Positions 8,171-44,114 of a stretch of DNA of 46,352 nucleotides are shown here, one piece after another. The stretch is from Bacteroidales bacterium (GTDB lineage: Bacteria > Bacteroidota > Bacteroidia > Bacteroidales > P3), in the NCBI GenBank assembly GCA_017509045.1, contig JAFWQP010000033.1:1-46352 (forward strand), given 5' to 3'. The position numbers and the translations under genes are program-made. The notes beneath the pieces were generated by a model. It had not been told where the DNA came from, searched no databases, and saw only the letters and a list, made by a program, of their open reading frames with translations. Position 1 is the first letter of the stretch; the number at the start of each line of letters is the position of its first letter.

Positions 8171-8174
8171 TCAA

Positions 8175-8246
8175 ACATTGCTCAAAGCGAGAGCAGAGAA
8201 AGCTCGCTTTTTTCTGCCGAGCCAAAGCAATGTCACAGTATGTAAC
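8175..8246. repeat. Family A palindromic element, diverged copy A1
   Basis: The outer arms ACATTGC (8175-8181) and GCAATGT (8227-8233) pair perfectly. The inner part keeps the GAGAGCAGAGA...CCGAGCC core and the trailing GTCAC...GTAACGAATT of the other copies. The arms differ from those of other copies on both sides at once, so pairing is preserved. Confidence 0.6.
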
Positions 8247-26460: not shown

Positions 26461-26514
26461 ATGTTGGCTCGGCATAGCGAGCAAGCTCTCTTAGCTCTCA
26501 CCTTTTATAACGTT
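26461..26514. repeat. Family A palindromic element, copy A2
   Basis: It contains the core GGCTCGGCATAGCGAGC, the inner hairpin GCTCG-GCATAG-CGAGC, AGCTCTC...AGCTCTCACC and an outer end AACGTT. The outer stem is shorter than in other copies. It lies in the 154-bp gap between rsmD and purC. Confidence 0.75.
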
Positions 26515-27112: not shown

Positions 27113-27127
27113 CTAATTAAATTAAAA

Positions 27128-27325
27128 ATTAAAAATTGAAAAATGGAATGTGTTAACGTGTTAATGTGTTAATGTGTTAGTCCTTGGCGCATCAAAGACT
27201 CACGAATTTACGAATTAACGTTGTACAAGGTGAGAGCAGAGAGAGCTTGCTCGCTATGCCGAGCCAAACAACGTCACGAAGTAACGAATTAACGAATTCA
27301 TGAAACGTATTTTAGTTTTTAGTTC
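27128..27325. repeat. Family C repeat region with inserted family A element
   Basis: Four octamers (AATGTGTT, AACGTGTT, AATGTGTT, AATGTGTT; 27147-27178) are followed by a unique-looking stretch, GTCCTTGGCGCATCAAAGAC, then ACGAATTTACGAATTAACG. The same sequence occurs inverted at 38701-38832, with the difference that here a family A element interrupts it. Confidence 0.85.
27221..27285. repeat. Family A palindromic element, copy A3 (filled site)
   Basis: The outer arms ACGTTGT (27218-27224) and ACAACGT (27268-27274) pair perfectly. The element is bracketed by GAATTAACG on both sides (27212-27220 and 27286-27294). The otherwise identical repeat at 38.7 kb has this 9-mer once and no element, so this copy looks like an insertion with a 9-bp target duplication. 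Confidence 0.8.
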
Positions 27326-27343
27326 TTACTTATTCCTTCAATC

Positions 27344-30344: not shown

Positions 30345-30376
30345 AAGATTGTTTGATTGTCTGATTGCTTGATTGT
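30345..30376. repeat. 8-bp-period array upstream of the APH-RapZ gene
   Basis: Units AAGATTGT, TTGATTGT, CTGATTGC and TTGATTGT follow one another without gaps. The same units recur at 36547-36586. Confidence 0.6.
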
Positions 30377-30384
30377 TATTCCAT

Positions 30385-30442
30385 GACGTTGCTCGGCTCG
30401 GCATAGCGAGCAAGCTCTCTCTGCTCTCACCTTATGCAACGA
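30385..30442. repeat. Family A palindromic element, copy A4
   Basis: The arms CGTTGC (30387-30392) and GCAACG (30436-30441) pair perfectly around the core GGCTCGGCATAGCGAGC and AGCTCTCTCTGCTCTCACC. It lies 48 bp upstream of the APH-RapZ start. Confidence 0.85.
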
Positions 30443-30451
30443 TTGACTAAT

Positions 30452-30568
30452 GGGAGCTTCTAAAAATTCGTTTTATTCGTTATCATGCTTGCATGACGAT
30501 TCAAAACATCAATTCGTTAGATTCGTGCGATTCGTGTTCAAAAGTAATAATTAGAGGTTGCCTAATAT
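30452..30568. repeat. Family B MITE-like element, copy B2 (inverted)
   Basis: Read on the minus strand it follows the B plan: GGCAACCTCTAATTATTAC, GAACACGAATCGCACGAATC, the central CATGC-AA-GCATG hairpin and TTTAGAAGCTCCC at the end. The terminal AGCTTCTA/TAGAGGTT-type ends are imperfect inverted repeats. Confidence 0.7.
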
Positions 30569-30613
30569 AACTTCACCAGCCACTCAAGTATTAATACAAT
30601 CAAATTTTTAGTT

Positions 30614-36475: not shown

Positions 36476-36546
36476 CACAAAAAAAACGATATGTCTTTCA
36501 TTTTATTGTGTGAGAAATATATTATTGAATGCATCATCGTGTTTTT

Positions 36547-36586
36547 TTGATTGCTTGATTGTCTGATTTCTTGATTATTTGAGTAT
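36547..36586. repeat. 8-bp-period array, five units
   Basis: TTGATTGC, TTGATTGT, CTGATTTC, TTGATTAT, TTGAGTAT follow in perfect register. Confidence 0.65.
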
Positions 36587-36628
36587 TTTCACTCAAACAT
36601 TGACACATTACTCACCTTAATATTTCGA

Positions 36629-36653
36629 TTCATCCGCCAAACGGATAGATGAG
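36629..36653 (-). mobile_element. Possible remnant of the ISL3 transposase 3' end
   Basis: The minus strand reads a frame ending IYPFGG and stop, close to the TYPFSG and stop that ends the ISL3 transposase at 46219. The DNA similarity spans only about 23 bp and includes a small hairpin, so a shared hairpin rather than a true relic is possible. A family A copy begins exactly where the similarity stops. Confidence 0.3.
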
Positions 36654-36722
36654 GTTACTTCGTGACGTTGTTTGGCTCGGCATAGCGAGCAAGCTCTCTC
36701 TGCTCTCACCTTATACAACGTT
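36654..36722. repeat. Family A palindromic element, copy A5
   Basis: It starts GTTACTTCGTG, has arms ACGTTGT (36665-36671) and ACAACGT (36715-36721) and a complete core. It abuts copy A6 with a period of 66 bp. Confidence 0.88.
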
Positions 36723-36788
36723 ACTTCGTGACGTTGTTTGGCTCGGCATAGCGAGCAAGCTCTCTCTGCTCTCACCTTAATACAACAT
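36720..36788. repeat. Family A palindromic element, copy A6
   Basis: Almost identical to A5 (same GTTACTTCGTGACGTTGT start and core). The right arm is ACAACAT, one transition away from perfect pairing. Confidence 0.88.
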
Positions 36789-36845
36789 TGAGGTCTATTT
36801 CATCCCATTTTGAATACTCTTTGTCTCTACTCTTAGGGGTGGAGG

Positions 36846-36900
36846 CAGAGCGAACCCAGAGCGAACCCAGAACGAAGGCAGAGCGAACCCAAAGTGGAAG
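36846..36900. repeat. 11-bp tandem repeat, five units
   Basis: CAGAGCGAACC occurs three times exactly, with CAGAACGAAGG and CAAAGTGGAAG as diverged units. The 11-bp period matches that of the palindrome near clpC/gyrA, although the unit is unrelated. Confidence 0.85.
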
Positions 36901-37047
36901 CAACCGTCTGTTATAATTATACCCAAAAGAACAAAATCCAGGGTGCAGCTTTTTAGAAAAAAAAGGTTGTTGACGCACTCTATTTTACCTTTCGGAAACT
37001 CTAAAAATAGATTCTTCCGACTAATACGTAGGCGAACCACACTTTTT

Positions 37048-37196
37048 GTGCTACAGTGCTACAGTGCTACAGTTATAGTTCAGGTGCTCTTATTTAATGA
37101 AATTTTATATATGTATTTATATATCAAATATATAGGTATATCAATAGCGTTTTGATAAGTCTAAAACGAACTGTAGCAACTGTAGCGCTGTAGCAG
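37048..37196. repeat. 149-bp element flanked by CTACAG-rich inverted repeats
   Basis: The left end is GTGCTACA repeated three times, then GTT (37048-37074). The right end (37169-37196) reads, inverted, as three similar GCTACAG units. About 24 of 27 positions match. The inside is AT-rich and has no gene. This could be a MITE-like element whose terminal repeats are themselves 8-bp arrays. Confidence 0.65.
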
Positions 37197-37280
37197 ATTG
37201 TTTCGTTATGTCGCAACAATGTCTTGTTGGTCAGAGGTTTGTAGGGACTGCATCTATGTTGTTGAAGTTTACAATTACTT

Positions 37281-37397
37281 TAAGGGACTTCTATTAATAA
37301 CCTTTGAACACGAATTGCACGAATCTAACGAATTTATTATCTGAATCTTCATGCAGGCATGATAACGAATAAAACGAATTTATAGAAGTACCCTTTA
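37281..37397. repeat. Family B MITE-like element, copy B3
   Basis: The best-preserved copy. Ends: TAAGGGACTTCTATTAAT and, inverted, TAAAGGGTACTTCTATAAAT. Inside are GAACACGAATTGCACGAATC, 9-bp-spaced ACGAAT motifs and the central hairpin CATGC-AG-GCATG. No coding capacity. Confidence 0.8.
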
Positions 37398-37477
37398 TGT
37401 TACTTTGTTACCTTGTTACCTCGTCCTATTTTGCAACTAACATTTAACACTTAACTCTTTTCGCATGGGTCAATCAG

Positions 37478-38575
37478 TTATATGAGCGATTTGATATCGT
37501 GCATCGGGTCGGCAACCTCAAGTATGTGAATTCTGCGTAGGCGTTCTTCTTCTGAAAAGGCATCTTCCATCAAGCGGGCAAGGGCTTCGCATACCTCGTA
37601 AGGAGTATCAGCCACTACGCAGGCATCTGTAAGGGCGGTGCCCTCCACCATCGGGCTGTTCACCAGGCAGTGGCGACCTTCGTAGAGGGCGTTCATCAGC
37701 TTCAGTTTCACTCCTGTAGCCTGCCAGGTGAGCAGTAGGTTGACTTGTGCCTCTTGCAGTAAGCGGTGCATGGTTTCGTCGTCGGGGTTGGCCACCAATC
37801 GCACATTGGGGTGTTTTGCAATAGCTTGCTGCAGCTCCTCGTCCGGATTTCTTCCTGCCACTATAAATGGATAGGGGCAGCGGTCTACCACCTGTTCCAG
37901 CAGGTGGTGGACGGCATTGATATTCTCAGGCACAGAAAGGTTGCCGTGGTATAGCACATAGTCGCCCATCCCTGTGAGTGAGGTGACGGATGTGTGTCCG
38001 TGGGATGGTGGCAGCAGTCGCACATCTCCGCACCCTATGGCACGGAAGTGGGCTGCATCAGTGTTCGAAATGGCCAGCACCCTAGTCGCCTTGCTCAACC
38101 ACTGCTCATATTGGCGCAACTTACGTGCCTCAATACGAAAGAAGAGACGCTTCCACGGGCTCTTCTCCACAGCGGCGAGCGAGTTGTAGTAGTCGTGTTC
38201 CACGTTGTGGGCACGAACGATGATGTGCCTCCCCTCCCCTGCTAGCTGTTCTAGCAGTAGGCAGCAGTGCAACCCTTCTAGAAGTATGGGGTAATCGTCT
38301 TGTCTAAGGTGTTTCAGCAATGCCTCAGAGCAGCGCGAGGCCACTATGTAGGGGCGTCGTTCCAATTGGTGACGGAGCCCTACCTGGCGTGGGTAATAGC
38401 ACACTTCCTCACACCATTGATCTAATTCCTTAGCCTCTGCTCTTCCGTAAGTGTAGCAGTGTAGATGAATCTTAACGCCTGCCTTCGAAAGCGCGACAAT
38501 GCGATAGTATACGTCTATCACACCGCCATAGTCGGCAGGCCAAGGAACATTGAATGTGACAATGTGGAGATGCAC
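37478..38575 (-). CDS. Glycosyltransferase, GT4/GT1-like GT-B fold
   Basis: 365 residues. The N-terminus HIVTFNVPWPADYGGVIDVYYR is the typical first Rossmann strand with glycine-rich acceptor loop; HNVEHDYYNSL and ISNTDAAHFR follow. The donor half includes YVLYHGNLSVPENINAVHHLL, FIVAGRNPDEEL and the sugar-binding region TGVKLKLMNALYEGRHCLVN. No membrane segment. It is monocistronic, bounded on both sides by repeat clusters. The sugar and acceptor are unknown; a role in surface polysaccharide assembly is likely. Confidence 0.82.
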   Translation of the reverse strand: MHLHIVTFNVPWPADYGGVIDVYYRIVALSKAGVKIHLHCYTYGRAEAKELDQWCEEVCYYPRQVGLRHQLERRPYIVASRCSEALLKHLRQDDYPILLEGLHCCLLLEQLAGEGRHIIVRAHNVEHDYYNSLAAVEKSPWKRLFFRIEARKLRQYEQWLSKATRVLAISNTDAAHFRAIGCGDVRLLPPSHGHTSVTSLTGMGDYVLYHGNLSVPENINAVHHLLEQVVDRCPYPFIVAGRNPDEELQQAIAKHPNVRLVANPDDETMHRLLQEAQVNLLLTWQATGVKLKLMNALYEGRHCLVNSPMVEGTALTDACVVADTPYEVCEALARLMEDAFSEEERLRRIHILEVADPMHDIKSLI

Positions 38576-38593
38576 TTTTTAGAAGATAAGTAG

Positions 38594-38700: not shown

Positions 38701-38832
38701 TTTAAACTAAAAAGTAAAAACTAAAAACTAAAATACGTTTCATGAATTCGTTAATTCGTAAATTCGTGAGTCTTTGATGCGCCAAGGACTAACACATTAA
38801 CACATTAACACGTTAACACATTCCATTTTTCA
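38701..38832. repeat. Family C repeat region, inverted copy (empty site for family A)
   Basis: The reverse complement matches 27128-27325 nearly base for base (octamer array, GTCCTTGGCGCATCAAAGAC block, ACGAATTTACGAATTAACG, then AATTCATGAAACGTATTTTA) except that the family A element is absent. The last ~4 bp touch the 3' end of the MBL gene. Confidence 0.88.
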
Positions 38833-40798: not shown

Positions 40799-40935
40799 TT
40801 TGATTCCTTGAATGTGTTAACGTGTGAATTTTTGAATGTGTTAACGTGTTAATGTGTTAATGTGTTAGTCTTTGGCGCATCAATGATTAACGAATTTACG
40901 AATTTACGAATTCAAATTTTCACTTTTCAATTATT
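40799..40935. repeat. Family C octamer array, nine units, plus trailing ACGAAT repeats
   Basis: Units of exactly 8 bp run from 40799 to 40870: TTGATTCC, TTGAATGT, GTTAACGT, GTGAATTT, TTGAATGT, GTTAACGT, GTTAATGT, GTTAATGT, GTTAGTCT. Then TTTGGCGCATCAATGATTAA and repeated TTACGAAT octamers follow. It lies between lepB and the cyclophilin gene. Confidence 0.8.
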
Positions 40936-42557: not shown

Positions 42558-42860
42558 ATTTGATTGCTTTATTTTAAAAGTAAAAACTAAAAACTAAAAA
42601 CTATAAAGGTGATTTCTTGAATGTGTTAACGTGTTAATGTGTTAATGAGTTAGTCTTTTTTGAATGTGTTAACGTGTGAATTTTTGAATGTGTGAATGTG
42701 TGAATGTGTTAACGTGTTAATGTGTGAATCTTTGATTTACGAATTTACAAATTAACGAATTAACGAATTCAAGATTTACGAATTAACACATTAACGAATT
42801 TACGAATTCAAATATTCAATTTCCAATTTTCAATTTAATAAGTTTTCAATTTCCTTAACG
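42558..42860. other. Intergenic region filled by octamer arrays
   Basis: These 303 bp between lepB and a glycosyltransferase gene contain no gene. Nearly all is family C repeat (42617-42812), followed by the AT-rich CAATTTTCAATTT-type tail that also flanks the other copies. Confidence 0.75.
42617..42812. repeat. Largest family C octamer array, about 14 plus 9 units
   Basis: From 42617: TTGAATGT, GTTAACGT, GTTAATGT, GTTAATGA, GTTAGTCT, a 3-bp slip, then TTGAATGT, GTTAACGT, GTGAATTT, TTGAATGT, GTGAATGT, GTGAATGT, GTTAACGT, GTTAATGT, GTGAATCT (to 42731). A second register of TTTACGAA/TTAACGAA units follows. Units vary but the 8-bp phase does not. Confidence 0.85.
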
Positions 42861-44114
42861 TTATTTTTCATTAAATATTGCATTGATTGTTTTTATCAGC
42901 GTTTTTTTCTCATTATCCCAGCACAGCTCTTTGCGGGCACGGGCAAAACGCCTGTCGCGTTCTTCTTGTGGCATAGTATGCCAGGCATGAAGTGTATCGG
43001 CAATCGTATTTGCCAACCTGCCAAGGTATTGGTCGTATGCTTCCCCATCTTTGACGGCGGGGCACGCCTCGGTTGTGGCTCCAATCCCATAGTGTTCTAT
43101 CACCCTTTGTATCTCCACAAAGCCTGTTGCCAACAAGGGCACCCCAGCCTGCACAAAGTCGCCCACTCGGTTGGGCAGTGCACAGCGATAGCTCAGCCCC
43201 AAGTCTTCTAGTAGGCATACGCCCATGTCGGCCTTGGTGGTTAGCGCATGCAGCTGATTGGGGTCGACCCGTCCAAGAAACATAATACGTTCTGACCAAG
43301 GCTTGTCAGCGGCATACTCTCGCAGTTCGTCTAACAGGTCGCCGTCGCCCGCCACCACCAATCGGCACTGTGGCAGCCGCCCCATCACATCTACCAGCTC
43401 CCTCACTCCGCGCCCTACGTTCACCGCACCTTGATACAATAATACTTTAGCCGGTGAGTCACCGACGACATTCAATGCTGCTGCACCTGGATAATTCTCA
43501 ATTTGTGAGGGCTTACACAGGGGTAAGCGTGAGGACTTACACAGGGGTAAGCCCCTACGATTTTGTACATTGCGCACCACCGTCATCGCCACCCCGTAGC
43601 GCCGTCGATATTCTTCAGCCACGCTTTGGCTCACCGTGAAGGCGGCATCTACCCTCGGCAGGCAGGTGCGTTCTACCCATTTCCATACCCTTTGAACCCG
43701 TGGCTTTCCTACCAGCTCTGGCACGTCGGGAAACAGTTCGTGGGCATCAAACAGCAGTTTTTTCCCCCGTAGCCTCGCGGCCCAGCAGCAAGCCGGCAAC
43801 GTGTCGCTGTCGTTGGCATAGAAGGCGTCGGCACGCATCAACAGCAGCTTGAGCAGTAGCCGCATATTATATTCGGCATAAAACAACGCCGACCGCCTAA
43901 ACAGCAACCGCATCCGCACACATCTGTATGGCCTTGCATCCAACGCCATTTCGGCCACCTCGTTAGAGGTGTGCCCAAAGCCCGAGGCATGTCCCAGCCT
44001 CCGCCCAATTAGCGTCACCGCGTAGCCCGACTCCTGCAAGGCTCGGCAACTACGGTCCACCCGCTGGTCGGTCAGCAGGTCGTTGGTGACAGCCATGATG
44101 ATTCGTCGTGCCAT
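42861..44114 (-). CDS. Glycosyltransferase family 4 protein
   Basis: 417 residues. GT-B fold: first strand RIIMAVTNDLLTDQRVDRSCRAL, acceptor-side YANDSDTLPACCWAARLRGKKLLFDAHELFPDVPE, and donor-side VLLYQGAVNVGRGVRELV, RLVVAGDGDLLDELRE, IMFLGRV and a C-terminal ALPNRVGDFVQAGVPLLATGF (sugar-nucleotide contact). No membrane segment. It carries a 16-residue insertion near residues 187-203 made of two 8-residue repeats (LPLCK-S/P-S), coming from an inserted 24-bp direct repeat. The start codon overlaps a perfect hairpin (44114-44147). It probably builds a surface polysaccharide. Confidence 0.85.
   Translation of the reverse strand: MARRIIMAVTNDLLTDQRVDRSCRALQESGYAVTLIGRRLGHASGFGHTSNEVAEMALDARPYRCVRMRLLFRRSALFYAEYNMRLLLKLLLMRADAFYANDSDTLPACCWAARLRGKKLLFDAHELFPDVPELVGKPRVQRVWKWVERTCLPRVDAAFTVSQSVAEEYRRRYGVAMTVVRNVQNRRGLPLCKSSRLPLCKPSQIENYPGAAALNVVGDSPAKVLLYQGAVNVGRGVRELVDVMGRLPQCRLVVAGDGDLLDELREYAADKPWSERIMFLGRVDPNQLHALTTKADMGVCLLEDLGLSYRCALPNRVGDFVQAGVPLLATGFVEIQRVIEHYGIGATTEACPAVKDGEAYDQYLGRLANTIADTLHAWHTMPQEERDRRFARARKELCWDNEKKTLIKTINAIFNEK
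43505..43552. repeat. 24-bp tandem duplication of an intergenic-type repeat inside a glycosyltransferase gene
   Basis: Two units of 24 bp (43505-43528 and 43529-43552) differ by one base. Each holds the palindromic core CTTACACAGGGGTAAG. Units of eight codons keep the frame. Confidence 0.85.

Follow-up and report, generated by a model that had tools for sequence, protein, structure and literature searches.

A 66-bp two-hairpin element at filled and empty repeat sites of Bacteroidales

Filled and empty sites in the window and its genome

The stretch of DNA considered here, called the window, comprises the 46,352 nucleotides of contig JAFWQP010000033.1 in the assembly of a Bacteroidales bacterium (GCA_017509045.1), hereafter the source genome. 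What we call the rsmD gap (27113–27343) holds a composite repeat at 27128–27325 (forward strand), which consists of arrays of the 8-bp units AATGTGTT and ACGAATTA, is itself a dispersed repeat, and contains a palindromic element. A paralogue of this repeat without the element lies at 38701–38832 on the reverse strand, and global alignment of the two leaves a single gap of 74 bp in otherwise nearly identical sequences. The motif GAATTAACG occurs at 27212–27220 and 27286–27294 of the filled site and a single time in the empty copy. An earlier note on this DNA had pointed to these near-identical repeats, with the palindrome in the first only and GAATTAACG twice versus once, and the alignment confirms it. 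The note went on to read them as a palindrome of about 65 bp inserted with a 9-bp target duplication or else precisely excised, while warning that the flanks are repetitive and that slippage is possible. The flanks are indeed arrays of 8-bp units, and thus the window pair alone is ambiguous between a duplication and an extra unit. The 74 bp are made up of an element proper of 66 bp, reading ACGTTG...GAAGTA at 27218–27283 on the forward strand, and of 8 bp (27284–27291, forward strand) that match one unit of the host array and looked like a target duplication. The ends of the element were taken from filled and empty pairs in two host repeats and transferred to this copy by alignment.

Four such pairs are available. 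The filled copy on contig C132 differs from its empty paralogue at 42724–42800 of the window (forward strand) by 66 bp at the junction, with no duplication, and one more 8-bp unit differs further to the right. The other host repeat, family B, is a dispersed sequence of about 40 copies that is unrelated to the 8-bp arrays; modules are present in some of its copies, singly or in tandems of up to three, and are missing from many others. Three family-B pairs (L306/L324, L299/L308 and L303/L315) each show a 66-bp gap and no duplication. In the pair L316/L308 the 66-bp gap is displaced by two bases and the 3′ end of the element is mutated, and the alignment of L301/L312, which involves three tandem units, gives no clean whole-unit gap. 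Empty family-B junctions read CTCAAC-ATCACC, CTCGAC-ATCACT and CTCATC-ATCACC, and filled ones have identical left bases followed by the module. Since the left bases follow the host (AAC, GAC and others) and the GTAAC to the right belongs to the module itself (seven of nine filled copies by our own count), the insert is ACGTTG...GTA, placed between A (or G) and A. Insertion therefore occurs at A^A or G^A with zero target duplication. The additional 8 bp of the window pair reflect gain or loss of a single host array unit via slippage, which is where the caveat of the earlier note applies. Its 9-bp duplication has to be given up, as none of the four pairs in two host repeats is duplicated and register is preserved in arrays with periods of 7 and 9 (see below). 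What stands is a discrete palindrome with the same ends, present or absent at matching sites in several unrelated contexts, and it is highly probable that the 66-bp hairpin was inserted. There is a general caution here: a seeming target duplication within a short-period array can be a single array unit.

Across the whole assembly (2.71 Mb in 154 contigs) a 68-bp module has 48 matches, the weakest listed with an E value of 2.2e-12, and the likeness is thus no matter of chance. Tandem copies are counted singly here, and four contigs (C48, C50, C51 and C57) have copies at their ends, which may lower the number of distinct loci. In retrieved stretches of the same genome, 57 module copies were read when diverged ones are included. 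There are at least four host contexts in this genome, namely the 8-bp arrays, family B, an array of GGTAACAA and arrays of AATCAAGC, and by eye the module subtype tracks its context. Within the window, a head-to-tail tandem of 66 and 67 bp (36656–36721 and 36722–36788, both on the reverse strand) is found in a family-B context, next to a family-B flank at 36787–36880 (forward strand) whose first two bases overlap the second unit. The AATCAAGC arrays provide a third context, with a copy at 30375–30441 (reverse strand) and a truncated copy in a context of that type at 26464–26514 (reverse strand). A diverged relative of the AACATTG type, 78% identical, lies at 8174–8236 (forward strand), and another copy of the host array repeat at 40825–40914 (forward strand) has no element. 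Thirty family-B copies were read, comprising by our own count nine filled, 17 empty, one with a truncated module and three that are neither. The tree built on family-B flanks, for which 26 rows were used and four left out, calls for at least eight changes between filled and empty, and is poorly resolved, with one of 23 inner branches starred. Other repeats are also present in the window. An inverted pair at 30448–30570 and 37275–37397 (123 nt, 83% complementary) is apparently a separate dispersed family, and a 24-bp tandem pair at 43505–43552 lies inside an open frame (42861–44114) that is weakly glycosyltransferase-like.

Hairpin structure and target sites

The element is composed of two abutting hairpins, 66 bp in all, or approximately 80–95 bp in what we call the Rikenellaceae type. 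Hairpin 1 starts at the 5′ end (ACGTTGC...GCAACGT or ACCGACG...); the ACGTTGT and ACAACGT arms are its two sides, and are not terminal at the 3′ end. Hairpin 2 is short and ends one base short of the 3′ terminal A (...GTA or ...TTA). Among 28 diverse copies of the CGTTG type, standard pairing is found in 90.1% of cells over the 17 pairs of hairpin 1. Two-sided changes are seen at 10 of these 17 pairs, against a mean of 5.1 in shuffles (none of 500 reaches 10) and 1–5 in slid controls; further pair types are no more numerous than in shuffles (155 of 500 reach the count). A free fold recovers the same helices, and base pairing is maintained by compensatory changes. Folded as single DNA sequences, the element reaches only modest stability (z −1.65 and −1.57), and the 93 copies collected by pattern were picked by their core, the conservation of which is thus by construction.

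GNA triloops give very stable DNA mini-hairpins. In 19 of 28 distinct types hairpin 2 pairs completely and closes on a triloop, and nine types do not fit; of 213 unique copies, 98 could be parsed and 87 of these have the full structure. A GNA loop is present in 15 of the 19 types, as in ACC-GAA-GGT. When 3′ halves were shuffled the mean was 6.7 and the maximum 13, and since these shuffles were drawn among related sequences no probability can be derived from the comparison. The closing base of hairpin 2 in the Rikenellaceae type is mostly one base before the 3′ end, where the mean stem is 4.07 (at most 3.36 at the other offsets tested).

The same type gives the clearest view of the target. With the 5′ start set by the search pattern and the 3′ ends restricted to a few trinucleotides, 23 of 42 copies are in tandem arrays which continue in register beyond the element (21 of period 7 and two of period 9), whereas swapping flanks between copies gave 2.8 on average and never more than 8 in 200 draws. 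As background, the same register test is positive at 415 of 6,020 (6.9%) intergenic A|A sites of these loci. The array units that hold the elements differ and include ATGCAAA, AAACGGA, ATTTTGA and CTAACGACC. Fourteen distinct elements were selected for perfect register; the search pattern fixed their 5′ start (ACCG or ACTG) but put no constraint on the 3′ boundary. All 14 are at A^A, their 3′ ends being TTA in seven, GTA in four and other, with an ambiguous boundary, in three. Several of the 19 copies below the register threshold are in arrays by eye (L211 and L225) and others are in unique sequence; copies outside arrays have no obvious 7–9-bp flanking repeat, again by eye.

Some further observations concern the arrays themselves. 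Approximately 7% of intergenic A|A sites in Rikenellaceae-type loci lie in tandem arrays of 6–10 bp, mostly of period 7 and with many different units. At L183 (4983–5204) three elements stand in tandem with one 7-bp array unit between each, giving a period of 92. Ends of the GTA type are found in five of five copies in ATTTTGAA arrays versus two of 42 elsewhere (Fisher p 1.4e-5; loci within L174–L283, related and not independent, under the same limits on 5′ start and 3′ ends as in the register test), and this link of 3′ end type to array type may arise from flanks that travel too.

Relatives, distribution and the search for an enzyme

Parts of the window have collinear counterparts in five congeners. 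Of the 29 loci with the rsmD gap, the 14 in query orientation were examined, and in 13 of them the gap is only 2–39 bp with no repeat. At L143 of genome G037, a related species, the gap holds a different array repeat of 407 bp, which gives this site the look of a hot spot. Six repeat-bearing sites of the window were aligned with one to four relatives (those at 38590, 40790 and 42540 with G102 only), and the insert is absent in the relatives shown; at the 36510–37490 site, which lies outside the alignments, G102 has approximately 1 kb without the hairpin. Over 107 kb of collinear stretches from the five relatives, a profile search found no hairpin and BLAST found no family-A array (the 8-bp-unit kind). 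The rsmD gene is 75–81% identical in these relatives, a divergence which bars base-level reading of the sites. The earlier note had named copies always fixed at orthologous places as the observation that would speak against insertion, and the sites are instead empty in collinear relatives. Because the host arrays and the hairpin are both missing there, the composites were gained as wholes too, and since a composite is dispersed along with its hairpin, most copies in the source genome need not be separate insertions.

In the named-genome collection the core pattern matched at least 114 stretches. Among the 80 matches listed, all have Bacteroidales or Bacteroidetes-type titles apart from one titled only "bacterium P3", and carriers include Alistipes, Rikenellaceae, Prevotella (Prevotella sp. 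P5-92 among them), Coprobacter secundus and Tidjanibacter. By similarity search 39 of 99 genomes of the genus have the module. The exact pattern is present in five of the 295 genomes sampled from the order, where its reversed control pattern matched none. Both counts include the source genome. The element is thus patchy, with high copy number in few lineages. In the congener G008 the module occurs in arrays of CTATAAC, CTTGAAC and CTCTTAA. The core pattern found no hairpin in viral contigs, nor did BLAST of the window copy in plasmids and phages, and a scan for insertion within coding genes gave no clear case. At L220 an element stands beside a possible oxidoreductase frame, as read by hand. 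The literature searches made found no description of the hairpin or of the arrays.

A transposase that could act on the element was sought in three families, DDE families being outside the scan and many of the genomes being incomplete MAGs. Y1 transposase genes (PF01797, IS200-type) number two in the source genome and are present in nine of 14 module-bearing congeners and six of 30 named carriers (the sets overlap), so that the Y1 transposase is neither constant in carriers nor absent from them. PF04986 (IS91-type) is found in one and PF01548 (IS110-type) in three of 31 named carriers, and the source genome has neither. None of 35 loci of these three kinds (33 distinct), inspected approximately 1.5 kb to each side where the contig allows, has the hairpin; a single weak match (E 0.08) and two partial motif strings were seen. 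The 26 Y1 loci among them (24 distinct) include none with the module, and hence none with ends common to the module and a Y1-transposase element, the defining mark of PATEs. RAYT/Y1, IS91-type and IS110 transposases were therefore set aside as resident drivers, not being found together with the element, and the full-length transposon with ACGTTGT ends that the earlier note had proposed to look for did not appear in the three families. The two lone Y1-transposase genes of the source genome (L039 and L040) are RAYT-like and lie within unrelated palindromic repeat arrays of their own.

No clear bias of the kind that lagging-strand insertion would predict was seen by a crude measure on loci of at most 8 kb, where 46 of 83 copies are on the strand of positive skew. 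A recurring neighbour gene was also considered and dropped, the largest open-frame cluster spanning five of 80 listed loci; the top 25 neighbour clusters, judged by eye on partial sequences, are ordinary chromosomal genes or antisense frames. With respect to flanking genes the copies are arranged sense-sense in 21 cases, antisense-antisense in 12, divergent in nine and convergent in eight, and 12 are inside predicted frames.

Explanations for the movement, and known systems

We lean towards a non-autonomous hairpin, similar to PATEs or REPs, that is moved in trans, a single-strand route included. On this reading the window insert would be one copy of a non-autonomous mobile hairpin family, an enzyme supplied in trans would move it, and folded single-stranded DNA would be what moves and is rejoined at A^A, as is thought for PATEs or REPs. 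Entry, at A^A or G^A, is often within 7–9-bp tandem arrays of other repeats, and tandem copies could form by insertion beside the element's own ...TA|AC end, although unequal recombination would make them too. Clean insertion, fixed ends, two hairpins and own-end tandems are all expected from PATE- or REP-like single-strand movement. Points on the other side are the lack of a driver in the three transposase families scanned, the strand counts without clear bias, the dispersal of composites along with their hairpin in the source genome, the link of 3′ end to array type, further pair types at the level of shuffles, and the modest stability of the single-sequence fold.

It is also conceivable, but in our estimate rather doubtful, that recombination and slippage suffice, with gene conversion or unequal exchange copying whole composites, and with the hairpin coming and going via short homologies (the AAC at both of its ends) instead of transposing by itself. 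Such a history would fit the way in which module subtype follows context by eye in the source genome, the dispersal of family A and B copies along with their flanks, and the joint absence of arrays and hairpin from relatives, and tandems of period 66, or of 92 with the 7-bp unit included (L183), resemble unequal exchange. However, elements of this one kind are found in arrays whose units differ widely, as well as in host repeats of the source genome that are unrelated to one another, and pure recombination does not predict the single A^A junction of the 14 selected copies, the 5′ start of which was set by pattern. An unlikely possibility to our mind is movement into 7–9-bp arrays at A^A by an undescribed enzyme or host pathway, with the type of the 3′ hairpin going with the array chosen. 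It is raised by the HUH and IS110 transposases being undetected in most named carriers, which would make such an enzyme or pathway necessary, and the match of 3′ hairpin and array would then come from targeting coded in the element or from arrays produced by the same machinery. If true, this would be a new way of moving DNA in Bacteroidales.

Two further explanations are still less probable. A structured RNA or transcript element under selection for processing, termination or attenuation, whose mobility is secondary or past, or which in a variant moves by RNA copies, would account for the conserved core and the covariation, and a weak leaning towards the sense strand of the neighbouring genes (21 co-directional copies in sense versus 12 in antisense) goes in the same direction. 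Yet Rfam gave no match at gathering scores for the window and 16 loci, orthologous sites lack the hairpin, copies stand in both orientations and all four gene arrangements, and the distribution is patchy, with high copy in few lineages (the five of 295 genomes given above); we consider this explanation very unlikely. A classical DDE-type MITE with an 8–9-bp target duplication was suggested by the GAATTAACG on both sides of the window copy, and flanking 8-mers are identical by eye in three of 15 family-A-type copies, an identity that an 8-bp array yields anyway. No fixed-length target-site duplication, by which class II MITEs are defined, was found: all four pairs, drawn from two contexts, have a junction gap of 66 bp, non-array copies have no obvious 7–9-bp flanking repeat by eye, and register is kept at periods 7, 8 and 9, which is impossible for one fixed duplication length. 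The MITE explanation is accordingly extremely improbable. A likeness to attC sites of integrons was considered as well and dropped by reasoning on arm polarity.

The family is sharply defined: its ends are resolved to the base, its junctions obey a rule and its structure is constrained, and yet no enzyme is visible. As it belongs to one of the major gut orders, the long-standing question of what moves hairpins that have no transposase (CGTC REPs, SMRs and GC clusters among them) becomes testable in culturable anaerobes.

When compared with described families, the element appears to work like a PATE or an SMR, and we do not class it as a member since, for each family compared, a defining trait is missing or in doubt. 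PATEs of Haloquadratum are IS605-derived and palindrome-associated, and a version of 52 bp with the termini only has been reported (PMC3119063). They share with the element the lack of a transposase gene, near-terminal palindromes (here subterminal hairpins at both ends), very short forms and the absence of target duplication. PATE ends, however, match resident IS605-type elements (PMC3119063), whereas no such IS was found here and 24 of 30 named carriers have no Y1 transposase. SMRs of type A, also from Haloquadratum, are likewise approximately 100 bp and free of target duplication, have a strong preference for other repeats, and have no mobilising agent described for them (PMC3119063). They differ in that they target IS605 and PATE palindromes and have prominent inverted terminal repeats according to the same text (PMC3119063), whereas 7–9-bp tandem arrays are favoured here and terminal inverted repeats are not prominent in the elements listed.

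More distant likenesses are found as well. BrickBuilt and other MITEs of Porphyromonas gingivalis are non-coding Bacteroidales elements with a tandem-repeat component, but BrickBuilt is set apart by terminal inverted repeats of the IS5 kind and by short duplications that are not consistent (PMC4596501). GC clusters of yeast mitochondria are short hairpins mobile in AT-rich intergenic DNA under structural constraint (PMC4478555); they are organellar and flanked by AG or ACT direct repeats, and thus provide a distant analogue for which we claim no homology.

Many-copy folded hairpins are also seen in REPs, BIMEs and REPINs (PMC3733652; PMC6006769), the latter source treating Y1 subclasses and their flanking hairpins. 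Unlike these, the element spans 66–95 bp with two hairpins, forms head-to-tail tandems, lacks the GTAG tag, and has a stem that is larger and includes a conserved internal loop. As to the GTAG REPs, which are mobilised by a RAYT flanked by copies, the tag is missing from the A1 consensus, the RAYT-like genes of the source genome stand in other arrays, and Y1 loci have no module. CGTC REPs have no dedicated transposase and have been reported from Bacteroidetes among other phyla (PMC3733652). In many A1 rows hairpin 1 does have CGTC or TGTC at its foot; nevertheless the unpaired tag, 8–9-bp stem and 4–5-nt loop of CGTC REPs are not reproduced, as the first CGTC bases lie within the hairpin 1 stem and both stem and loop differ. 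PATEs, SMRs and CGTC REPs come closest to this element in behaviour.
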